Shown here: in pieces, positions 36,026 to 49,744 of the stretch
Position numbering within the stretch: the first letter of the stretch is position 1
Layout of the letters: each line of letters begins with the position of its first letter
Assembly (NCBI GenBank): GCA_000310025.1
Contig: FN649730.1
Coordinates: 778,860 to 842,859, forward strand
Length of the DNA: 64,000 bases
Direction: 5' to 3'
Source: Ectocarpus siliculosus
Taxonomy: Eukaryota > Sar > Phaeophyceae > Ectocarpales > Ectocarpaceae
Translations under genes and position numbers: made by a program
Notes under the pieces: model-generated
What the model was told of the DNA's origin: nothing
Database searches by the model: none
The model's input: only the letters and a program-made list of their open reading frames with translations

Positions 36026-37196
36026 GTGTGAGTGGGACCGGGGCACCGTTAAACCTGTCGCCGGGGAACAGGAACCATGTGCGGATCTCGATGGGAGGAT
36101 GCAACTTCGTCTCAAGTGCGAAAAGGTGTAATATTGTCCCTCTCGAAACTCGTCGCTTGGACCGGGGATACGTCAGTGTTGCTAGGCACTTCGGCCTGTT
36201 TCCTGGGGAATATGCGACATATTCACGGGAAATAGTCTCGAATGAATGGGTTCACGCAAGGGGTTAAATGTAGAAACTGATGTGGGTTTTCATGCCTGTG
36301 TTTCGTCGATCCTTCGAGAAGTTCCGTAGTGAGGCTCTAAGCAATCGAGGCGCCCGCTTGTCCAAAACCAAAACAACGAAGGTACGATTGTTTAATTAGC
36401 GTACAACCTTAGACTATGCGTAGTGTTTCGTTTAGCTGTAACATACCGCCTCCGACTATGTGCAATGTGTTGTTCAGCTGTAATAATATGTTTCTCTACT
36501 GTTGGCAACCGAGGAGCCCGAAGGCCTCCGGAAGATGTAGGGCCCAAAACGATATGTTATCCTATGATTATTTTCGATGGTAACAGATCGGAACTGAAGC
36601 AGGTTGGAGTTCATCCACTCGGGATTCAACGTACTTATCATCACCGCGATGAACTCAGTCGTTCCGGTATTGGTAGGTCTATCCCTGCGCCCTTGTAGAC
36701 CTCGTCGGTGTGTGAACATCCAAATTTTCAAATGTCCTTGTGTGAACGCCGTCAGACACCTACATGTACACATCCGGTATATTTGTGGACACAGCAGCCT
36801 GGGTCACGGCTGTCGGTGTTGTTATCGTTGTTGTCGGCGTTGTTGTTGTTCCGCCACTACACACGTGAATTAATGACCGTGTATTCAGGAGTCAACGTTA
36901 TCGTCATGTGTGCGTTTTGCACACCCGGTTGCGGGACCGCACGCCATACCATACGCAGACTACACGCTCTACAAATCCATGAATTCTACGCAACAAACCC
37001 GGTGCGCAGGGGCGTCGAGGCTGTCGTCTGTCGTGTCTATAGTCAACTGCTGTCGGCTTCGTGCGTACCAGATAGTGGAGTGGCATCATTTTTCTTGGTG
37101 TTTTGTTCGTCGACCTCGGATTTCGCTTCTTCTGTTCTTCCAGGTCGACTGCCGTTGGTGCCGTGCGTTGGTGCCGTGCCAACGGTGTTCAACCGT
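36026..37196. other. No gene seen between the LRR exons and the retroelement
   Basis: Only short unconvincing open frames are present. It may hold the 3' end of the LRR gene and the 5' flank (or remnants of the 5' LTR) of the retroelement. I could not match it to sequence at the element's 3' end. Confidence 0.4.
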
Positions 37197-37310
37197 CCGA
37201 TACAATGTACCATGGCGTGCAGCAATCACCCAGACTGTGGTGTGCCCGGGCATGAGCATGGCCAAACGGTCCTGTTGTGCGACACATGCCTTGGTATGCT
37301 ATGTCCGCCT
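37197..37310 (+). repeat. Retroelement leader segment, first direct copy
   Basis: The CGTCCGATACAATGTACCAT block continues through a short reading frame, MACSNHPDCGVPGHEHGQT, ending in LCDTCLGM. The frame carries paired Cys and His (C, H-x2-C, H-x-H, C-x2-C). It is nearly identical to 38222-38335, with only two or three base changes. A Gag N-terminal start is possible. Confidence 0.8.
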
Positions 37311-38054: not shown

Positions 38055-38221
38055 AATTCCAGGGTCTGCTCATATCCACGGTGATCACCTCTGTTTCTAT
38101 ATACCCTTTCGCTCAAAACTCACCATTTTGGTGTGCGCCAACACGATGAAACTGGCCAGCGTGCTGTGCGGAACCACCGATTGGGGTTTTGACTGCGGGA
38201 CCACCACCGGTTGAGGTCGAC

Positions 38222-38335
38222 CGTCCGATACAATGTACCATGGCGTGCAGCAATCACCCAGACTGTGGTGTGCCCGGGCATGAGCATGGCCAAACGGTCC
38301 CGTTGTGCGACACATGCCTTGGTATGCTACGGCCG
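38222..38335 (+). repeat. Retroelement leader segment, second direct copy
   Basis: Second copy of 37197-37310. The encoded short frame again begins MACSNHPDCGVPGHEHGQT but ends early at a TGA near 38335, just before the Gag open frame. Confidence 0.8.
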
Positions 38336-39210
38336 TGACACCGTTTGACTCGATTGATACAATGTGGCAGGCGTTCGCGCCTTTGGCCACCAACAAAACT
38401 CCCGCTTTAGGAGGTTCAGAGTATTTTTCTTTGTCTTCCACGCCTGGTTCTTCGCAGCCCCGGCGTTCCCAGAATCGTGCAACTGCACCTGCGCCTTCGG
38501 GCCGGTGGGCACAAGGTTCTGCACAAAATCATGTTGTTTTGGCAGTTCAGTCTCAGGGCGGCGATGATGATCCGTTTTCCCGTGATTATAATGCATGGCC
38601 CGCCACACAGGGCGATTGGTCGAATGTGTACCAAGTCAGTTCCTCTTTCCGTAACACCGGTGACCCTTTTTTGTGGACTCCTCTCTTGACTCAGGACGCT
38701 CGCTCGCAAGCGTTTCGAGAGAACCGTAACCGTTGTTTGAACTGCTCTGGTGATGACCATTCCATGAAACACTGCCCAGCTTCTTTCACAAATTCTAGCG
38801 GTCTGTTGAACCCAGAACTAGGTGAGCTGCACGACAACTCTGACGCTTCCCGACGTTGGCAAGGCCGTATGAGGTCTTACCGTCGCAAGCCACACACCGG
38901 TTCAGGTGCTGGTGGCGGGCGTAGCAAGCGTCACTCTTCGTCTTCGCGTAGAAATCACGCAGGCGACTACCGTAACAACGGTAACTCCCAGAATGATGTT
39001 CGCAATAATGGAAATCTTGCTCATAACTCGCGACAGCCGTCCACAGACAACACCCATCACACTGGTGCTCTGTCTACATACCGACCGCAATCGTCGGTCC
39101 ACACAGGCTCTCCTCGTGGCGCTTCCGTTTCGTCCAACTACAATGCTACACAGCCGGGAAATTTCCAATCTGGCGGTCAGAATGGCCACAATACTCGTGG
39201 GTCCAACTGA
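38305..39210 (+). CDS. gag: Gag-like protein with CCHC zinc knuckle
   Basis: An open frame of about 300 codons. A zinc knuckle CLNCSGDDHSMKHC (C-x2-C-x4-H-x4-C) lies at about residues 143-156, the nucleocapsid signature that binds the element's RNA. It is followed by a very basic R/K- then S/N/G/Q-rich tail. The upstream 140 residues are S/T/Q-rich with no clear capsid fold, so the capsid part may be truncated. The frame start is uncertain because the upstream leader is duplicated. It is in the same frame as the NADAR region, separated by stops. Confidence 0.75.
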   Translation: MRHMPWYATAVTPFDSIDTMWQAFAPLATNKTPALGGSEYFSLSSTPGSSQPRRSQNRATAPAPSGRWAQGSAQNHVVLAVQSQGGDDDPFSRDYNAWPATQGDWSNVYQVSSSFRNTGDPFLWTPLLTQDARSQAFRENRNRCLNCSGDDHSMKHCPASFTNSSGLLNPELGELHDNSDASRRWQGRMRSYRRKPHTGSGAGGGRSKRHSSSSRRNHAGDYRNNGNSQNDVRNNGNLAHNSRQPSTDNTHHTGALSTYRPQSSVHTGSPRGASVSSNYNATQPGNFQSGGQNGHNTRGSN

Positions 39211-39303
39211 CTCGTCGGTGGTGGTTCGTGTACCTCCCCCGACCCGCCTTCGGCACCATCGGGACATATTGCACGTTTTTCACAAGTTGTACGTGTATCA
39301 GGG

Positions 39304-39735
39304 ATGGTGGAGCGAGGTGCTCCTGCCCTGCGAAACGCTGGTGCCCTTGCACCCGCTGTTTCTTCTCCATATTCGGACAAGAGGGTTGGGAATGCACAAG
39401 ACGATGCCGTTCCCCTTTCACCCTCCGACGTTTCGCTTGCGACCTCTGCTACTTCGCCTCTTTCGATGGGTATTTTTTCGGGAAATTACTCCCCCGAGGC
39501 GAGTGCCGTGTTGAGGTGCGGGAACAGAGCGACCAGACGCGCGGGGCCACCGAGTGTAGTTCGGCAGCTCCCCCCGGCGTCTGCAGGTAAGACCGGCAAG
39601 AGCAATAGCAATGCGCTTTATATGATTGAGGAGGATTTGTCAGAAGTGGTCAATTCTGATGCGTCTTCTGATATTCTTGTCATTCGTCTGCGCTCGCTGC
39701 CGCCGTTGGTCCGCCAGCCGCCGCAGCACCGGTAG
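39304..39735 (+). pseudogene. Low-complexity Gag-Pol linker fragment
   Basis: An open stretch of about 143 codons, S/P/A-rich, in the same frame as Gag and the downstream NADAR region, closed by TAG at 39733. No domain is recognisable. It is likely a former linker of a longer polyprotein, now broken by stops at 39208 and 39733. Confidence 0.4.
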
Positions 39736-39912
39736 CGGTTTCGTCAGATCCGACCGACGATTCTCACCCGGTGGGGCTAAGCAGACCCCACCAATTGCCA
39801 ACGCGAACGATCGTGCAGAGGTGCAAACCAGGAACATCCCGCGATCGACGTTGAGAGTGTTGACAGCACCGTCTCCAGAGGACGCTTAAGAGACGCCCGC
39901 CGTAAATACGGT

Positions 39913-41076
39913 ATGCTCGCGATCCTTGTCACGGAGGACCTTGCACCATCCAACGTTGTGTTGACAGACAAAGCACTGGTGGCCGCTCCTAGCGAAAGCG
40001 ATCTATATGCCCCCTGGTCCGAATCGGATGCCGGTACGGTAGAAGATCTAGAAACGGACAGCCCTATACGAAGCGTGGCGCCCCCGTTTATCTCGGCAAA
40101 TTCGGCAGTGGATTCGAATTCTCCGATGGACCCACCCCCTGATTTAGGCAATTTAGCAATGGATGTAAATCCCTTTGCCCGTACACCTGGCACCGGCCCA
40201 TCTGCAGAAGATGTTGACCATAATGCTGCCCGGGCGTCTCCCACTTCAGGCCATTTAGCAGTTGACACACATCCTGCTCGTACTTCTCGTCATCGTCCGT
40301 CCTCGGAAGACGCTGGTTTCGATGCTACTCAGGAGTACTCCAATTCAGACGTGGTCCTATTTTGGAAATCCCCTTCTCCCTTCTGTCAATGGACCCCATC
40401 TACTTTTGTCGTTGATGGTACTTCGTATGTGTGTGCAGAGCAATTTTTTGCTGCAGAGAAAGCTCGTCTTTTCGGCAACCGCGAATGTCTACAGAACATC
40501 ATGAGAGTTTCCGACCCCGATCTACACAAGAAGTATGGTCGTGCTGTCCAGGGTTTCGACCAAACTCTCTGGGAGAAGGAGCGCGAGAATATCGTGCTGA
40601 CCGGCTCTTACGCTAAATTTTCCCAAAATCCAGAGATGAGACTACACCTCCTTGGATCCGGAGACAAACTTTTAGCAGAAGCCAGTCCTTATGACTGCAT
40701 TTGGGGAATCGGTCTTCGTGCAGATCATCCGGACGCTTGTCGTCCGTCTCGTTGGCGTGGTCTAAATTTGTTGGGTGTAGCTTTACAGAACGTTCGCCAA
40801 CTTTTACGATCAAACGCCCCACAGCCAGAACGTAGTTCTCGCTTAGCGGCTTCGGGTGAAACGCCCAGGCCAGATCGTTGTAACGTGTTCGAAGTTAATC
40901 CTTCCACGCATCATCGGCTGTCGACGGCACCTACCTGTGCCGTCGTCTTCGGAACGTTTCGCAATACGCCACTAGTACCCCGTCCGATCATGACAACAGC
41001 GTTTGGGCTGTGTCTCGGGACACTGACCATTCTGGTCCTCAGTCGCCTTTGCTTCCTGAGCAAGGTCCTAGTTTAG
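39913..41076 (+). CDS. NADAR (YbiA-like, DUF1768) domain region of the retroelement
   Basis: A 387-codon open frame. About 130 residues of acidic linker precede a NADAR domain at about residues 148-300. It reads FWKSPSPFCQWTPSTFVVDG, then CAEQFFAAEKARLFGN (the E-Q-F helix with the conserved Glu and Lys), KYGRAV, WEKERENIV, KFSQNPEMR, LLGSGDKLLAEASPYD, IWGIGL and GLNLLGVALQNVR. These are the hallmark blocks of the family, in order and uninterrupted. NADAR proteins hydrolyse ADP-ribose from guanine and are linked to NAD/ADP-ribose metabolism. The position between Gag and protease suggests it is made as part of the polyprotein. The end overlaps the protease frame (+/-1 shift near 40950-41010). 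It is the best-preserved frame of the element. Confidence 0.85.
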   Translation: MLAILVTEDLAPSNVVLTDKALVAAPSESDLYAPWSESDAGTVEDLETDSPIRSVAPPFISANSAVDSNSPMDPPPDLGNLAMDVNPFARTPGTGPSAEDVDHNAARASPTSGHLAVDTHPARTSRHRPSSEDAGFDATQEYSNSDVVLFWKSPSPFCQWTPSTFVVDGTSYVCAEQFFAAEKARLFGNRECLQNIMRVSDPDLHKKYGRAVQGFDQTLWEKERENIVLTGSYAKFSQNPEMRLHLLGSGDKLLAEASPYDCIWGIGLRADHPDACRPSRWRGLNLLGVALQNVRQLLRSNAPQPERSSRLAASGETPRPDRCNVFEVNPSTHHRLSTAPTCAVVFGTFRNTPLVPRPIMTTAFGLCLGTLTILVLSRLCFLSKVLV

Positions 41077-42317
41077 TCGGCGGTGTAATCACCGTTGACG
41101 ATGACTCTTTCACTGCACGAATCCTCACCCATTGTGGCTCGGCTTCTACGCAATTTGGATGTGTGGCATTGCTGGACACCGGTTCACCCCAGACTTTCGT
41201 TAGTTCATGAACTTGGGAGTCCATGAAAGCCACGGGTGCAGCTTCGTCGTTGTTTGAAACACGCACCCATCCTCGTTGTTGGGGAGGGTTTGGTGAGTCC
41301 GCCCCCCTTCAAACGTCGACCATGGTCCGTTTGAGCGTGCAGTTTCTTCGGCGAAAATTCCCGACCGCTTCTCTCGCCGTTTGGGCGTATGTTGTGCCTG
41401 ACGGTGTTATGCAACATGATGTGTTGCTCGGCAGAGATAGTTGGATGCGGTTTAGCAACCGTTCCTACCGTGCCTTGCCCACAAGACGCCCCAGTGATCG
41501 CGTTTTCGGGGAACTGACTTTAGCCCACCATAACCAGGGTGGTGCTGAAGCTTTTGTGCATGATGTCACTGCTCGTGGGGGTAGTTTCCAGCTTAGATAT
41601 GCTGGCCGAGATCCAATTCAATTGCTGCCTGAACACCAACTTGTTCCAGTTGATTTAGTTCGCCGTGATGGGTCTCCTGCCCTTGTAGGCAATTATCTGG
41701 TAGATATGTTTGCTCAAATGTCCATGTTTTCTTCAGAAGAACATTTTGTTACTCATGGCCACCAACGTGTGCCATTAGCGGGAGTTTCGAGTTTGGAACC
41801 GGGTGATGTCTTGGGTACCGCTTCAGCGCCCCTTCTCAAGGTTCCTCTCGGTGCGTTTCCGTGTGATAACGACGGAGCTGGTCTTCCGGCCACCGCCGTT
41901 CCACCCACTCCCGCTTCGGACACCTCGCAATCTGACCAAACGGACCCTGGCCCCGTTTTTCACTACGATGGCTCCGGTTCGACAGCGTCACCGATGGCTC
42001 ATTCGTTTGTGTATGATTTGCATGAAGGGACCGCCAAACCGCAGCATCCGGCGCCTGGTTCGGATCCTTCTGATTCGACTCCTCTTTCACGTCCTTCGGC
42101 TCTTTTGGCGCGTTTAGCACCAGATCAACGTGCCAGTTTCTCTCGTGTATGGGATAAGCTCCCCCGTCACTTGCGAGAAATCACGTTTAATTTACATGGT
42201 CCTGGTTGGACACCGGACGTTATTGCCGAATTGGGTAATGTGCTATGTGAATACCACGACGTGTTTTCCAGTTCACCTACGGATTCGGTTCTTGTTCATT
42301 GTTCCCGTTCAAGTTGA
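41010..42317 (+). pseudogene. Retropepsin-like aspartic protease region, interrupted
   Basis: CVALLDTGSPQTFVSS holds the D-T-G active-site motif of retroviral-type proteases. An in-frame TGA at 41208-41210 follows at once. The same frame then continues for about 360 codons and includes DVLLGRDSWMRF (the conserved hydrophobic-G-R-D C-terminal protease motif), then a Pro/Ser-rich linker and a segment (WTPDVIAELGNVL..YHDVFS) typical just before Ty3 reverse transcriptase. The frame shifts near 42300. Confidence 0.75.
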
Positions 42318-43444
42318 CCGTTCCCCCCGGCAGTGAGCCCGTTACATCTCGTCCGTACCGAGTTAGTCCTCCGGTTTCGAAGCAAGTGGACGCTATTATC
42401 GACCAATATCTTGCTGCGGGTCTTATACAACACTCGACGTCACCGTACTTGAGTCCTTTGGTTGTGATACCCAAGAAATCCGGTGGTGTTCGCATCACCG
42501 TAAATTATCGTAAGTTGAATAAACTATATGCTCTTAGCCAGCTTCCGATTCCTAGAGTTGATGATACTCTGGACAAATTGTTGAAGGGAAAGATTCATTC
42601 TCTCTTTGACATGAAATCTTCGTTCCATCAAATCACGGTTCATCGTGATACCATCCCTCTCAAGGCGTTTGTTACGTCTTCTGGGCTGTTTGAGTGGTTG
42701 AAAATGCCTCAGGGCAGTGCCGCTGCTCCCGGATGGTTCTGTAAGGTCGTCAACGAAGTCATCAAAAATCTTCGGGGTGTTGCGTCGTATCTGGACCTCA
42801 TTGTCTTTGATGAGACCCCGGCCGCTCATGTAGCGACCACTCGCTCTCTTTTCGAAAGATTGCGCGAGCACAATTTGAAACTGACTCCTCCGAAAGCCAC
42901 TATTGGCGCCACGGAAGCCGAGTTTCTTGGGCACACTATATCTCCGGACGGAGTCCGGCCCAATGGTGAAAAAGTTGTTGCTCTCACCAAGATGCCGATG
43001 CCCAAAGACACCAAGCAGCTTCGAGCTTTGCTGGGTGGTTTGGGCTATTACCGGAAGTTTCTTCCACAGATGGCTAAGCGTATTCGCCCTCTTACGACTC
43101 TTCTTAAGAAGAATGTGAAGTTTGAGTTCACGGGTTCAATGGCATCGGTCGTTCGCCCACTTCTCGAGGAACTGGCGAACCCTCCAGTTCTGGTGTATCC
43201 AGATTGGGATGCTGTATCCGACGGTGCGCGCCCTTTTCGTCTCTACTGTGACGCGAGTAAAGATGGGTTTCGTGGAACTTTGGAACAAGAGCAACCTGAT
43301 GGAACTATTCGGCCCATCGTTTTCGTTAGCCGAGCTACTTTGGAGTCTGAGCGTCATTGGACTCCTCTGGATCTTGAAGCTGGCCGCATCATTTGGTGCA
43401 TCAAGCGCCTTCGCGGTTACCTATGGGGCACCCACTTCCCTTGA
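42299..43444 (+). pseudogene. pol: Ty3/gypsy reverse transcriptase and RNase H, damaged
   Basis: RT blocks are clear: SPLVVIPKKSGGVRITVNYR, LFDMKSSFHQI, MPQGSAAAPGWF (in place of the usual GL.NAP), AEFLGHTISPDGV and the LRALLGGLGYYRKF connection helix. RNase H follows with LYCDASKDGF, RPIVFVSRATL and LDLEAGRIIW..LRGYLWG. The catalytic loop reads SYLDLIVFD, so the second Asp of the usual Y-x-D-D is absent, consistent with loss of one codon. The frame ends early at 43444, and the RNase H tail (VQRWLEFLTAYS, then RKGSSNGNVDFLSRLP) is spread over two other frames. This copy should be inactive. Confidence 0.85.
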
Positions 43445-45126
43445 ACACCTTGCAAAGGTGGGGGAAAACAACGCTCGCGTTCAACGTTGGTTGGAGTTCC
43501 TCACGGCATACTCTTGAGTATCGCAAGGGTTCGTCTAACGGCAATGTTGACTTCCTTTCTCGACTACCGATAGAAGCTACCGAGCGTGACCGTTCTGGCC
43601 GCAGTCGTTTGACTCCGTCGGCTGAAGATGAAGCGGTTTATTTTATCCGCTCTTGTGGATTTGTGCCTTCTCGCCATCGAGCCGGTGTTGGCTTGGGTGG
43701 GCTCGTCCCGTCCGCCCCGAGTTCAGTCTTGGGTGGGCTACCGCCTTCTTCAGCTGATTTTGCTGATTTTCGCGAGCACGGACCGCGCGCTACTGTCGCT
43801 CATTCCGGAGTTCCCTCGGGCGTCTGGTCTGTTAGAGGTTTAACCCCGACTATTATCGGTGCTTCGGGCTCTACAACCGCTCGCAAACGCCCTCCCTTGG
43901 TCACCTCGGATCGTTCTGCAGTTTCGACTGCTGCTGATGTTTTTTCCGTACAGAATGCGACAGAGACGCCCGCTACACGCCCTGGTGCTTCATCCAGGCG
44001 CTCCCTGGATCCTACCGATCTAATTTCGACACGGACCCGTCGGCGAGCTGCTGCTGCCGCCGGTAGTCCGCGCCCGGCTGTGGACTATGGCTTTTCCCAG
44101 CCGCAGGACTCGCTTCTCGAGCCGACTGTCCCTCAGTCTGTAGCTCGTGCGCCTCGTGCTCATCAATCTTCGGCTTCCCGGCCGGTAGATTCCGCCACTT
44201 CGGCGCCACTGAGTCCAATTCCGGAGATGGCCGTTCGCTCAGACCCGACACCGCCGACGCCCGCGTCTGGACCATTGCTTGGTTCGGTGCGTGTTCCGCC
44301 GGCTGTTGATATCCCAGTACTTGCGGGCGTGGAGCTCGATTTCCGCGAATCGGTTGAGCGTTTTTCCCATTCTGATTGGGCGCGAGAACAACGCGGTGAA
44401 CCCGTGTGTGATGCCGCCATACGCTACATCCTTCTAGGTCAACCTCCCGAATTACCGCCTAGTTTTCTTGACCACCTTCCGTCACACCGTCGACCTTCGT
44501 TTTCGGACATCCGTGAATTGGCACACAAAGGCCGGTTGCACGTTGACGACAATGACGTAGTACTTCTCGTTAAGAAGCCCACCACAAACACTTCTGCCAC
44601 TTCCACGCGCCATGGCGGGCGTGCGGCACGTCCCCTCAACGACGAACCTAATAGGGTTTACGTCCCCATGTTGATGCGCCCATGGATCATGCAGGTCTGT
44701 CACGCTAATGCGTCTTGTCATCTTGGTGCAGCTCGTACGCGGTCTATGTTAGAGTGTTTCTACTGGTGGGTAGGCATGAGCGTCTGTACCAAATGGTGGA
44801 TTCGCCATTGCCTCAAGTGCCAAGCTCGTAAAACTTCCCGACAAACGGCCCGGTGGCCCATTTTAAGCTTGCCACTGCCGTCCGGACCTGGAGTGTCCGT
44901 GAGTGTCGATTGTTTCGGCCCACTGCCGACTACCCCTAGGGGTAACACTTACATTCTGCTCTTCACCGACCGATTTAGTCGGCGTGCTGACATGTACGCC
45001 GTTACGGCTGCTGAGTTTACCGCTGAAGGTACTGCAGATTTTTTAGTGAATCGGAATATCCCTCTGTGGGGTTGCCAAAGCATCCGAGAGAGCGGAGTTT
45101 CGACGCTCGATCCGAGAAATGGATAA
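43393..45126 (+). pseudogene. pol: RNase H tail, linker and integrase N-terminal half
   Basis: A frame of 577 codons. GNVDFLSRLP closes RNase H. A long Pro/Ser/Ala-rich linker (about 43570-44330) is unusual in length. The integrase zinc-binding domain follows (CHANASCHLGAARTRSM ... WIRHCLKCQARK; H/H/C/C). The core begins at VSVDCFGPLPTTPRGNTYIL, which holds the first catalytic Asp. The frame loses homology at about 45090 and stops at 45124, where the inverted segment begins. Confidence 0.8.
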
Positions 45127-45129
45127 CTT

Positions 45130-45533
45130 GTGCTGCTCGCGTACTAGCTCGTATGCACGGCGTTGGCGATCAGCAGCGAGGTCGCAATATTGGAGATGGT
45201 CGCGTGACCACGAGCATAAGGATGCTCGATGACAGTCATCGGAAGGCGAGGCAAACGGTTGATGTGCACCTCATTAGGTGCTAAACCGGTGGCCGCGCTA
45301 ACAGAGTTATTACGCGCAAACTCTACATGAGGGAGATGGACATCCCAATCATCTTGCCTTTCGTTAACGACCATGGCAAGCGTTTGTGCCATAGTATGGT
45401 TAACTCGCTCGACACCACCATTTCCATTAGGATGGTACGAACTGGTGGCCACTTTGCGAACTGCGAGACGTATGTAAACGGCTTGTGACAGTTTCGAGCA
45501 AAATTGTGTGCCATTGTCTGATAAAAGACACAA
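45130..45533 (-). pseudogene. pol: Integrase core second half, inverted
   Basis: The minus strand reads LLSDNGTQFCSKLSQA, SSYHPNGNGGVERVNHTMAQ and DWDVHLPHVEFARNNS, then a LAPNEVHINRLPR-type segment. These are the second Asp and the Glu of the D,D-35-E integrase triad and the following helices. They belong between the plus-strand sequences ending near 45090 and resuming near 45533, so about 400 bp has been inverted in place. Confidence 0.85.
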
Positions 45534-46170
45534 GCTTCCGACTTACACCATCGGCGATTGGGTTTGGATCTATAATACCGAATCTACCATTCGCTCCGGC
45601 GTTCGATCAGGCACCGACGACAAGGTTCTCAAAGCGAAGTTATCGTTGCTTTGGACCGGTCCGTTTAAAGTGTTGGCTGTAGGCCCCTGTTCGAAAGCCC
45701 CTGATGGCAGTCCTCTCGCGGCCAAGTTGTTATACTTGGATCTTCCGTCGGACCTGCCGGGCAAAGACTCGAAACGTCGTGTTTCGGCCGCACGCTGCAA
45801 GCCATGCGCTAACCCGCATGACGCTGAGGACTTGCCACGGTTTCTGCCGGCTGGTCTCACGCAGTATGTTTTAAAACAACTATACGACAACTCTCCTCCG
45901 TATCATGTTACAGAAAATGACGTCTCGACTTCGGTCGAACGTCTCGAGGTGGTACTGGTCACCAGTCTGTTCGCGGTCGTGGTGGCGGTATCGCTGTTCT
46001 GTATTAGACACATTGGAAGGGTCTTCTCCGCCCTTCTTGGGAGCGTGAGATGGACCTTCAGCACTCTCGATCGCAGATTCTCCGGTATTGGACGGGTACG
46101 CCCGATCAACACCGTCAGACGAATCGCCGTTACAGTGCAATGCGTATTGGCGCAGCCGCACGCGAATTGA
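45534..46170 (+). pseudogene. pol: Post-integrase region with GPF-like module
   Basis: The plus frame resumes with KLPTYTIGDWVWIYNTEST and KLSLLWTGPFKVLAVGP, the W/GPF-type module found C-terminal to Ty3 integrases. A hydrophobic stretch near the end (VVLVTSLFAVVVAVSLFCI, about 45950-46010) looks like a membrane segment, which is unexpected. It may be a frame artefact or an envelope-like remnant. Confidence 0.65.
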
Positions 46171-46508
46171 CACATGCTAAGGGCGAGAGATATTTGCCTC
46201 CGGGTTACTCCTTTGTCTCCCGCTCAACCTGGGACCGCCGTTTCGCCGATGCTCCTCTACCTGTGGGTGCGTTCTTCTGGTACAAGGCTCAAGATGAACT
46301 CTGGTGGCTGGGCAAGATTTCTGGACCGACAGCGCGGGCCGACCACTACATCGTCCGCTTCCTCGACGACCCCGGATCGGTCAAGATCGCCCTCTCCGTT
46401 GTTCGTTACTCTACCCTCGGATCTGCCGTCTGCGGTTCGTGGTGCCTTCAAGTTCACGGCGGTAGCGCCCTCATGAAAGGACTTCTTCGCAATGTCGACA
46501 TGTCGTGA
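46050..46508 (+). CDS. Tudor/chromo-like C-terminal domain of the retroelement
   Basis: A frame of 152 codons overlapping the previous one in another frame. LPVGAFFWYKAQDELWWLGK, then YIVRFLDDPGSVKIALS, gives alternating strands with an aromatic cage-like WYK..WW pattern of an SH3/Tudor- or chromo-type barrel. Ty3 elements of the chromovirus type carry a chromodomain here that directs integration to modified chromatin; a similar role is inferred. The fold call rests on pattern only. Confidence 0.5.
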   Translation: MDLQHSRSQILRYWTGTPDQHRQTNRRYSAMRIGAAARELTHAKGERYLPPGYSFVSRSTWDRRFADAPLPVGAFFWYKAQDELWWLGKISGPTARADHYIVRFLDDPGSVKIALSVVRYSTLGSAVCGSWCLQVHGGSALMKGLLRNVDMS

Positions 46509-47421
46509 AACGTGGAGACGGAGCATTCGCCGCCAAATGATTCGGCACGCGCCGAGTAGCAAGCGTGTGTGTCTTGGGATCTGCCTGTGTGATGTGTGTG
46601 TTCTATCCCAGATGGGATGCGGACTTGAGGTCGCCCTTGATCTCGTCCGGTCCTCTCATTTGCAAGTACGTGTAGGCTGTTGTTGCCTCTGGATAGCGCA
46701 GTGTTAGGCCTCGTCTTGGCATTTCGACCCCTTTTTTCCCGTCATTCTGGCGATCGGTTTGTTTCTGCCTGGTACGTCGTCTTGTCCTTCGAGTCCTTTT
46801 GCGTTTCTGCTTCTTTCGCCGTTCGCGTGGTTGAGCTTGATTTTCGTCTCCCTGCGGCGGTTTGATTTCGTCGGACCTTATGTTGGGTCATGGCCCCCTG
46901 GTTTCGCTGTCGAAACGATTGGTTTCTTACCTTTTTGGCTACGTCGTGCTATGGCGTCATTAGGTTTTCTTTGTGGTTAGTAAGCTTATTCGGGCTAGCC
47001 GTGAGTATTTTCGTCGCTTTTAGTCGTTTGGGCGACACCGACGGCTTCGTGTTTTGTATCGTTTTGTCGATACATTTGGTTATCGCCGTTCCGACGGTGT
47101 TTTTCCAGCGTTTTCTTCCTTTCTTTGGGTTCCGACCTGTTATGGTATTTGTAGCGTTGACGATTTCTTTTGTCGTGTCTATTGTCCCCCTGTTTCATTC
47201 CTAGCCCCGTCTTTTCCTTCTCTCTCTATCGTTCTTTTTGGTTGGGTCAAACAATGGTCTTGCGAGTCATCGTGTGAGAGGTGTGGGAGGGTGATTCTTG
47301 GTATTTTGGAGCTCCACATCATCCGTCCTCGATCCTTTCATTTTTTGGGATTCGACAATTTTTTGTCAACTTCCTAGGTTTCAAGTATCTGCGTATGAGA
47401 ACCTCCAGGGTGGGCTACTAG

Positions 47422-47686
47422 TGTTATGGGATTTGAATGTAGACAGTGCCAACGGTATTGCGGAGTAATTCCCAGAGGAAATGCGGGAGATGTAACTCCC
47501 GATGGAAGGATAAAACAGAGGACAGGACCTTTGTGGCCCCTTTTAGAGGGAGCATGTCCTCCCCCTCTGTGCTCAGTCTACCTTTGAGAGAAAGGCAACA
47601 GCAAGCACTGCTGTTCCAAGAGATTAATAAACAAGTGAGTCTTCATCAGGGTCTTCAGGGATCGCTACGCGTGTGATCCCACAACA
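47422..47686 (+). mobile_element. Copia-like long terminal repeat (solo or 3' LTR)
   Basis: About 265 bp starting TGTTATGGGAT and ending ATCCCACAACA, an 11-bp imperfect inverted terminal repeat with TG..CA ends. It contains an AATAAA at about 47626 and a promoter/terminator-like U3-R-U5 layout. Immediately upstream, CCAGGGTGGGCTACTAG resembles a copia polypurine tract, so part of the internal 3' end may be kept. No matching second copy is in the window, and the flanks do not show a 5-bp target duplication. Confidence 0.65.
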
Positions 47687-49744
47687 CTTGCTGCTTGCTG
47701 ACCCTTCCTTGCTGTTTGGTGCAGGAGGACCACACATACACACACACATTGATGGCTGCTGCTAAAAGGGGCTACAAAGAAAGGTCTAGGATTTGGTGTG
47801 GTCATATTCACCTCTCTCTCTTTGTACAAGTAAGTATGGGTTTTATAATGTTACACTTAAGCCTATACATTATGGAAAATATAGGCTTTAATTTATTAGT
47901 ATAACGATTCTAAGTCCTATACTATAAACAAACGCCTTGACCAAACAGTTTTTTTTTTTTTTTGTCTTCACTTCAAATCAGCGCTTACAGCACTGAGTAC
48001 TAGTGCCGTTTACTCCAACCCGTGGTCACACAGAAGAACCCTCTCTACCCTCCCCTCCTACGGTACTTTGCCTTCGATTTTTAATGCGAGAAGAGTTCAG
48101 CATTCTCTTCCCTCTTTGTACACACGAACTATTTAGCGCGATCCACTAGGCCAGGAGCGGAAGCGAGAGAGAAGAACTCACTTCGCAAGAAAAGCTCGCT
48201 TGCGCCGGGATTCGAACCCCTGACCTGACCTCTAGAAGGTTTCGAGAATACCAACTAAGACCACCGGGGCGACCGGCATAAATAATAAAATAACGCCTGA
48301 AAATGGAGGGGGGGGTGCATCACGTCGTTGAATCCACGTGCCCTCTTTCTTGCGGACCTGGTAGGACACTGCACCACACAGTCTAGCAGTCTTTCCTTCT
48401 GCCTTGCCTCTACCCAGTAGCTGTACCTGTGTTGTGGCGCACTAGATATTGATCTCTGAAGTGTGTCACCACTGGCAACGCTCCTTACATCACTCTTCCC
48501 GGAATACCCTCCACGTCGTCACAGGAGTGCACTGCTGTCGGAAACTCGCCAAGTCAAGTCGATCTTGTAGTCTAGACCTCACCAGCTGAGAACGCGAGGG
48601 GTCTCGGGAGACCAACACGTCCATCCACAATCAAGCCGACGACTACACACGACACGAAAGAGGTAAGCATACATAGGCGAGTCGAGTGCTGTAGCAACAT
48701 TATCGATGCCAGCAGGAGCTAAAGTTGACAGTGTGTCCTACGCTCAAACGCTGGAGATGATGCCGAGATGCGGGGAATCTCGGCTTGTTCTAGAAAAATC
48801 GGTAAGAAGAAGGTGTAGTCTAAGGTCCGGCCCCCTCGTGCATCCCTCCGTCTAACCATTAAGAGTCTATAGCGAAGCGGCGTCAAAATTTATGTTGATT
48901 TCTACCGTTCCACAGCCCCTTGTGGTTCACCCAAGAGTCACCTTGTTGTCCGGCACTCCCGTGCAATTGCATTAAACTATTCAACAGCGAATGGTGCAGA
49001 ACACGAACTGGTGTTGAACTTGGGAGTTTTTAAATTTCATGGTGTAGTCTACGTAGACGTCTACTGGACTGCTGTTGTTGCATACCACTACTTGTGTAGA
49101 TTGTACACGAGCTTTGTGCATATGACAGTCGTACGCCAACCGCTCATCGCTGGTACAGCAGTAGTATGACGATTCTCTGGTATTTATTTCGTTTCTCTTG
49201 TCTGCCTCCTGCAGCGTTGCTTGCCCTCAAACAGTAGTACTACAATATTATCTTGTAGTTCGCATCACGACACGTAACGGCCATCCATCTCTTTTCCCTC
49301 GTACACCGTGAAGCCGAGTTTCTTTCGCGAAGTAATAAAATAAAACAAAGAATCACGTGCGGTAAATATTACTTTCCGCTTGTTGTTGGGGCATATGATG
49401 TGAACAACAAGCAGAACTCTTCGTGTGATTTTGTCAAGTTTCAACTGCCGCAGTTGTTAAAACTCGCCAACATTACAGGTCCATCCATCCCCCAAGTATG
49501 TGGTATGGTGTTTTCGCGTGTGTTTCCTCAGTGGTTCACACTACTTGTGTGACACTTACAGGGCAGTGCACTCCTCCCAGCGAGCCACTGAGAAACAAGG
49601 CGTCGATTCTTCCTCACAATCAATGCAAACGTCCATGCCCGTACTTGTTCGCCCCCGTCCCCCGCTGTGGTCCCTTCGCTCGTCCACAGTCGTATCCGAC
49701 ATCATCTAGGTCGCACCGCACGTGAAGTCGAGTGGACGAGAGCC
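47687..49744. other. Non-coding stretch before the Hikeshi gene
   Basis: No protein gene is recognisable. It holds a T17 run near 47950, the tRNA-like sequence at 48202-48270, a palindromic CTACGTAGACGTCTAC at about 49049-49064, and otherwise unstructured sequence that should include the Hikeshi promoter. Confidence 0.45.
48202..48270 (-). tRNA. tRNA-like sequence with A and B boxes (degenerate)
   Basis: On the minus strand GCCCCGG can pair with CCGGCGC (6 of 7). TGGTCTTAGTTGG fits an A box, GGTTCGAATCC is a perfect B box, and a TTTT run follows at about 48192. The T-stem and anticodon stem pair poorly, and the loop TTCTAGA would give an unlikely CTA anticodon. It is therefore probably a tRNA pseudogene or the head of a SINE rather than a working tRNA. 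Confidence 0.45.

Follow-up and report, generated by a model that had tools for sequence, protein, structure and literature searches.

NADAR-bearing Gypsy elements of Ectocarpus were already published in 2025 (PMC12477816), so that their discovery as such is not new. According to that paper, the NADAR-carrying lineage of Ectocarpus sp. 7 (e.g. Gypsy-12_Ec32) is one among four Gypsy lineages, a Tudor domain is found in a different Gypsy lineage, and a NADAR-like domain also occurs in ORF1 of Tx1 LINEs from the oyster Crassostrea gigas. Its authors suggested a bacterial origin for the element NADAR domain and tentatively proposed that it serves in the processing of RNA intermediates. In the main text of this source the terms 'stop codon', 'readthrough' and 'frameshift' are absent and 'purifying' appears once, on other matters; we found in it neither a selection test of NADAR nor a comparison of NADAR with the reverse transcriptase (RT). 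A search of open-access journal papers yielded, among the papers listed, no further report of NADAR in LTR elements.

Eukaryotic (oomycete), bacterial and YbiA-type NADARs have been described as hydrolysing guanine-ADP-ribose (PMC11543638, PMC11125620). NADARs encoded outside DarT1 operons also hydrolyse it in vitro and protect poorly against DarT1 (PMC11125620), so that their native substrates may differ. In the YbiA subfamily the catalytic residue is given as a Glu in the last strand (E125 of the Phytophthora nicotianae protein, PDB 8bau), not an Asp or a His (PMC11543638, PMC11125620). RNA viruses (yellow head virus, nido-like) are reported to carry NADARs inside the polymerase (replicase) polyprotein (PMC9503650).

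Here we analysed a stretch of 64,000 nucleotides from Ectocarpus siliculosus (contig FN649730.1; hereafter the window), in which a Ty3/Gypsy lineage that was active until recently is represented by a decayed copy. As in the published NADAR-Gypsy lineage (PMC12477816), NADAR lies in the N-terminal part of Pol, a likeness in domain position. The Tx1 elements likewise combine a retroelement with a NADAR-like domain, but they are LINEs, and their domain is divergent and sits in ORF1. What we add to the published pairing is data on selection acting on NADAR, on its co-divergence with RT and on the Gag/Pol boundary.

A decayed Ty3/Gypsy copy with NADAR in Pol

The element spans positions 38326-47687 of the window (Table 1). 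Its order, gag-PR-RT-RH-IN with a CCHC knuckle, is that of Ty3/Gypsy elements (Metaviridae), the knuckle and the protease being known by motif alone, with no Pfam match for either ORF. RVT_1 and RNase H were matched within ORF 42299-43444 and Integrase_H2C2 within ORF 43393-45126. The preliminary description, made by a model from the letters of the DNA, had described a complete NADAR domain with the Gag zinc knuckle before it and the protease after it. This arrangement was borne out, with a UGA codon that separates Gag from NADAR and thus puts the domain in the N-terminal part of Pol.

Table 1. Features of the Ty3/Gypsy copy in the window (positions are those of the window)
Feature	Position	Strand	Basis or remark
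gag, 3' part (5' part missing), ends with UGA 39208-39210	38326-39210	+	blastn with sibling L142; ORF 38305-39210
CCHC zinc knuckle CLNCSGDDHSMKHC (CX2CX4HX4C)	38734-38775	+	read from sequence
Gag/Pol boundary, UGA then CUC GUC GG, Pol in same frame (LVGGGS...)	39208-39270	+	probable readthrough site
Variable N-terminal Pol linker, two stops before 39913 in the window copy (L081)	39211-40359	+	frames read
NADAR domain	40360-40809	+	Pfam; ORF residues 150-299
Retroviral-type aspartic protease region, approximate limits	41100-41620	+	DTGSP at 41175-41189, read from sequence
Reverse transcriptase (RVT_1)	42467-42940	+	Pfam, E 2.8e-22
RNase H (RT_RNaseH, RT_RNaseH_2)	43160-43438	+	Pfam, E 3.7e-17 and 1.2e-18
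Integrase, zinc-binding H2C2 and start of catalytic core	44662-45076	+	Pfam, E 1.3e-10
Integrase, rest of core, inverted in place, 459 bp	45076-45534	-	blastn of sibling piece, minus strand, 94.5%
Integrase, C-terminal region	45535-46506	+	chromodomain-like stretch at about 45946-46098 (sibling match)
3' LTR	47422-47687	+	96.7% match to sibling 5' LTR; sibling LTR 266 bp, TGTTATGGGAT...ATCCCACAACA

The same description had called NADAR intact and RT and integrase broken. The domain is indeed whole and the breaks are present, but the linker before NADAR also contains two stops. The NADAR ORF is out of frame with the following protease, the protease has an in-frame stop (41208-41210), two more frame breaks lie near 42300 and near 43400, and the RT has lost one Asp of its YLDD motif. 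With this damage and the inversion in the integrase, the window copy looks dead. Homology of its gag to the sibling begins only at 38326, so that the first part of gag is gone. Two direct repeats of 119 bp, 97% identical and 1028 bp apart, are present at 37189-37307 and 38217-38335; since the second of these reaches the start of the gag homology, it may have been involved in the 5' loss. No 5' LTR of this copy was found within the window, and the presence of the 3' LTR alone makes dating by LTRs impossible.

A sibling copy from another place in the genome was read in pieces: its gag has an open frame of 538 codons, ending close to the knuckle, and its piece L143 gave a match to the rve integrase core (E 1.1e-08). 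Its two LTRs (266 bp) are 99.6% identical and have CGTA, a short target-site duplication, on both sides. Such similar LTRs indicate a recent insertion. A C-terminal chromodomain belongs to the lineage of PMC12477816; in L143, PF00385 (Chromo) matched at E 0.049, below its cut-off. A second aromatic-rich stretch at about 46262-46414 (GAFFWYKAQDELWWLGKI...YIVRFLDDPG) has by eye the look of an SH3/Tudor-type reader and had no Pfam match in L143.

The NADAR domain and its predicted fold

The ORF at 39913-41076 (+ strand, 387 aa), whose assignment to the NADAR family had been made from its motifs, matched PF08719 significantly (E 1.2e-43; 149.6 bits, cut-off 35.1). Among PDB sequences, the ORF hit 8bau, the NADAR of Phytophthora (E 4.4e-17), and 2b3w, the YbiA of E. 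coli (E 3.1e-08). The AlphaFold model of the domain (pLDDT 96.7) is predicted to have the YbiA fold, with a helical core and two small sheets, and its best fold matches in the PDB were again 8bau (E 1.3e-12, TM 0.84) and 2b3w (E 4.8e-09, TM 0.75). The predicted fold was also matched by 52 viral models at E ≤ 0.001; among the 50 listed, many are named NADAR and others are nameless. These include the RNA-virus NADARs mentioned above, whose predicted folds match that of the window NADAR at about 20-24% identity for the entries named as replicase and which belong to positive-strand RNA viruses.

We compared twelve sites that contact ADP-ribose in 8bau or are important in its relatives, with roles taken from the description in PMC11543638. 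The window ORF has E176, K183, K206, G209, R210 and W220 at the positions of E43, K50, K75, G78, R79 and W89 of 8bau, and E256, D261 and W264 at those of E125, D130 and W133 (the last three by alignment and motif). Together with R93, ten of the twelve sites are therefore kept; at the other two it has Phe (Y84) and Gln (D86). The Pfam score above cut-off, the equivalents of E43 and K50 and the catalytic Glu (E256) in the last strand place the domain in the YbiA subfamily. It thus has its fold and catalytic residues in common with the P. nicotianae protein, which is not part of a retroelement. DarT1-NADAR antitoxins, which are not retroelement parts either, differ in having a catalytic Asp (PMC11543638) where the window NADAR keeps Glu, and the genome gave no DarT match that could represent a linked DarT1.

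NADAR is a regular component of the lineage

The genome assembly searched comprises 189.5 Mb in 492 contigs. It contained at least 109 NADAR matches with the window ORF as query and at least 150 with a brown-algal host NADAR, some of the matches in both cases being split pieces of one place. The two findings named beforehand as speaking against a NADAR-bearing element, lack of a NADAR match and presence in a single copy, were thus both contradicted. The RT lay downstream of NADAR on the same strand in all 44 element copies fetched from this genome, usually at 1.9-2.0 kb from start to start and at 3.0 kb in one. We sorted these copies into subfamilies that we labelled A to F (7, 17, 13, 3, 2 and 2 copies, respectively). 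The 166-aa NADAR domain was free of stops in 42 of the 44, and the NADAR frame continued past the protease motif in 36 of them and past YLDD in 20, counts that are raised by drawing the copies mostly from the top of the hit lists with a preference for open frames. Many relatives of the window copy thus keep long open frames.

Protein-database searches returned 59, 556 and 568 proteins, with 292 different ones among the matches listed. A D[TS]GSP-type motif followed NADAR by 110-153 aa in 81 of 293 proteins (the 292 listed plus the window ORF), and in Ectocarpus sp. CCAP 1310/34 NADAR and RT are united in the same gene models. NADAR is a regular component of this Ty3/Gypsy lineage, not a chance insertion. 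One metagenomic protein of 316 aa (P0054) joins RNase H (PF00075) and NADAR, with no further Pfam domain listed.

The genome also has a separate host NADAR gene at C24:2125206-2127066, with pieces 81% and 92% identical to an Ectocarpus sp. 13 protein; these pieces (L137, C24:2125000-2127300) are in different frames and look like exons, and their identity puts the genome close to Ectocarpus. An N-terminal Cys/His stretch of the CxLPGC type is present in the related proteins of Pylaiella, Ectocarpus and Scytosiphon (P0006, P0179, P0180). Esi0017_0056, described as a stress-induced Ectocarpus protein of 391 aa with NADAR at 132-291 and as bacterial in origin, was used to raise the salt and heat tolerance of Arabidopsis (PMC7922944). 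Compared by its description, its layout resembles that of the element ORF (387 aa, NADAR at 150-299), and it may be element-derived; the two introns predicted for it speak against this.

Origin of the domain

From 361 NADAR domains, clustering and sampling left 85 for a tree, in which 29 of the 82 inner branches are drawn open. Twenty of the 21 rows labelled as element-borne, together with three unlabelled ones, formed one clade (support 93/85), the element label of P0002, P0004 and P0170 having been given by resemblance, without a protease motif or an RT in the same protein. The remaining element row, P0177, which has NADAR and the protease motif, fell outside, and forcing it inside was not rejected (AU p 0.315). 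Among viral contigs, 162 relatives were found, of which 80 loci were kept and 15 entered the tree; none fell in the element clade.

The brown-algal host NADAR genes form a clade apart from the element rows. Six brown-algal non-element rows lie with the element clade (three unlabelled rows included, P0177 excluded) on the same side of a weakly supported branch (67/93), a weak hint that element clade and brown-algal host genes may be neighbours. Given this joint branch, the domain could equally have been captured from an algal gene or transferred from bacteria.

Selection on NADAR and co-divergence with RT

For the selection analysis, the 44 copies and the window copy (45 rows) were used. Two rows with a stop were dropped from the NADAR set; for the RT set, 12 rows were discarded that had no RT hit covering 330 aa or more in a single frame, and a stop removed 7 of the 33 left. 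Between subfamilies A and B, dN was 0.186 and dS 2.38 for NADAR (ratio 0.08; pN 0.16, pS 0.73), compared with 0.090 and 1.92 for RT (ratio 0.05). With synonymous sites at or near saturation, the NADAR value of ~0.08 is a rough one that is clearly far below 1. The comparison of dN/dS across copies that the preliminary description had put forward as a check therefore indicated purifying selection on NADAR. The other NADAR pairs with finite dS gave 0.11 (C-D) and 0.17 (A-F), and dS was infinite for all remaining pairs. Within subfamilies, the pooled ratios were 0.20-0.61 for NADAR and 0.28-0.36 for RT, values that are themselves lowered by the preference for open frames in sampling; higher ratios at this level are expected for young copies, some of them decaying. 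In one A-B pair (L097, L104), the identity was 27% in the 100 aa before NADAR, 77% in NADAR, 64% in the linker after it and 83% at the start of the protease.

NADAR and RT distances were strongly correlated (r 0.973, n = 24 copies, p 0.0001). Inside subfamilies, the correlation was r 0.68 in C (p 0.024), 0.32 in B (p 0.19) and 0.22 in A (p 0.50, n 3), so that the high overall value is due to differences between subfamilies, and the correlation was weaker inside each of these three. It was thus not significant inside A and B.

Further evidence was obtained from the ligand and catalytic sites. Over 24 element lineages, the mean conservation of the twelve sites was 0.89, compared with 0.67 over the whole domain, and only 9 of 20,000 random draws were as conserved. 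For nine contact sites the mean was 0.96, which none of 20,000 draws equalled; as this figure omits Y84, D86 and R93, which vary or differ, the twelve-site mean is the fairer one. E43 and E125, which are reported to contact the distal ribose (PMC11543638), scored 1.00 and 0.96, while R93 was partially conserved (0.79) and D86 was not (0.29). A Cys replaced R93 in 36 of 55 element rows and likewise in 25 of 80 phage rows. E43, K50, R79, E125 and W133 were all kept in 20 of the 24 lineages and in 47 of the 55 database rows that have the full domain and the protease motif. By these sequence measures, purifying selection acts on the element NADAR about as it does on RT, and the domain retains its catalytic residues.

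The Gag/Pol boundary

Gag and Pol lie in one frame, split by a UGA. The string TGACTC(A/G)TCGG was found at the boundary in 14 of 16 loci (L081-L096), and Pol continues after the UGA with L(V/I)GG, its first Met coming at codon 32 in A loci and at codons 354-447 in B loci. A UGA followed by C is a leaky stop context. In one A-B pair (L083 vs L092), pS in the first 18 codons after the stop was 0.32, which is below all 148 NADAR stretches and all 364 RT stretches of equal length (overlapping stretches; medians 0.75 and 0.67, respectively; lowest RT stretch 0.35). In this same single pair it rose with the length considered, from 0.25 for 15 codons through 0.32 for 18 and 0.35 for 22 to 0.41 for 30. 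So little synonymous change just behind the stop suggests a cis-acting RNA signal, although the RNA fold predicted there was no more stable than shuffles (z -0.2 to -1.0). We infer that Pol is expressed by UGA stop-codon readthrough; with one frame split by a conserved UGA-CUC and few synonymous changes after it, NADAR is probably made only in this way.

Discussion

The domain, the architecture of the element, the co-divergence with RT, the purifying selection, the catalytic residues and the predicted fold are directly supported by the data. The explanation that we prefer, to which we give as a whole a probability of about 0.5, is that NADAR is an in-particle eraser of ADP-ribose, made by readthrough and acting on the RNA or cDNA of the element; from the data we infer the readthrough, the packaging in the particle, the substrate and the benefit to the element. 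NADAR would be a standing enzymatic domain early in Pol, in the order Gag - UGA - linker - NADAR - protease - RT - RNase H - integrase - chromatin-reader-like tail. Readthrough of the UGA would bring small amounts of it into the particle within Gag-Pol, and it would then be freed by the protease or remain joined to it. In the particle, it would strip guanines of ADP-ribose in the genomic RNA or the nascent cDNA; if left in place, the modification would block reverse transcription. dUTPase serves some retroviruses in a like manner. That the element NADAR is an eraser of ADP-ribose is probable, this being the likeliest activity in view of the published hydrolysis of guanine-ADP-ribose and of the selection on the same residues; that its target is the element RNA or cDNA in the particle has an even chance.

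It is possible, if somewhat unlikely, that NADAR acts not on the nucleic acid of the element but on small derivatives of ADP-ribose or of nucleotides (NAD-derived signals, by-products of RNA repair, riboflavin intermediates), and so lowers a host signal or clears damaged nucleotides. YbiA and plant NADARs are described as N-glycosidases on riboflavin intermediates (PMC11543638), yet the YbiA-type NADARs tested also work on guanine-ADP-ribose DNA (PMC11125620). Many viral NADARs have been argued to prefer soluble ADP-ribose derivatives, macromolecular targets being favoured for those of RNA viruses (PMC9503650). The conserved sites of the element domain would bind ADP-ribose whatever it was formerly attached to, but the building of the domain into Pol, beside the protease and RT, suggests that it acts inside the particle or on nucleic acid.

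A domain that binds or processes rather than erases, recognising RNA or ADP-ribose and aiding packaging, RNA processing or targeting to modified chromatin, seems to us distinctly unlikely, the distal-ribose contacts E43 and E125 being conserved (1.00 and 0.96 in the 24 lineages) as they are in enzymes. In its favour are the processing of RNA intermediates suggested in PMC12477816, the nematode trans-splicing factor SNA-3, which has three NADAR domains and is reported to act in RNA metabolism (PMC9303266), and the chromodomain-like tail of the element, with a Chromo match below cut-off. The view of NADAR as a passenger, a gene of host or bacterial origin that was picked up accidentally and is now decaying, fits the many breaks in the window copy, but we give it hardly any credence and regard it as already refuted by copy number (more than 100 genome matches), by the fixed position before RT in six subfamilies, by the A-B dN/dS (~0.08, rough), by the protease motif after NADAR in 81 of 293 database proteins (292 listed plus the window ORF) and by the brown-algal host NADARs, which form a separate clade, with the host gene of this genome in separate exon-like pieces.

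Against the preferred explanation, the searches brought up no guanine-specific transferase in this genome. The genome gave four partial PARP matches, in a search whose control matched in 0 of 14 genomes, and no DarT match, the control of that search being positive in 1 of 14 genomes. The ART family PF01129 had no genome match and its control matched nowhere as well, which makes this search uninformative. The PARP and DarT results neither prove nor exclude that the host ADP-ribosylates invading nucleic acid. ADP-ribosylation of nucleic acids is established as a weapon in bacteria and their phages. In a broader and, in our estimate, unlikely scenario, brown algae would restrict retrotransposons by ADP-ribosylating guanines in the RNA or cDNA of these elements. 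This Gypsy lineage would counter the defence with a particle-packaged eraser made by readthrough, and the eukaryotic conflict would mirror that between DarT and NADAR in bacteria.

The conserved UGA boundary suggests how such elements may ration Pol. An eraser that appears to be active has persisted while the lineage diversified, which suggests that something in the algal cell attaches ADP-ribose, or an adduct similar to it, at places where this can harm the element.
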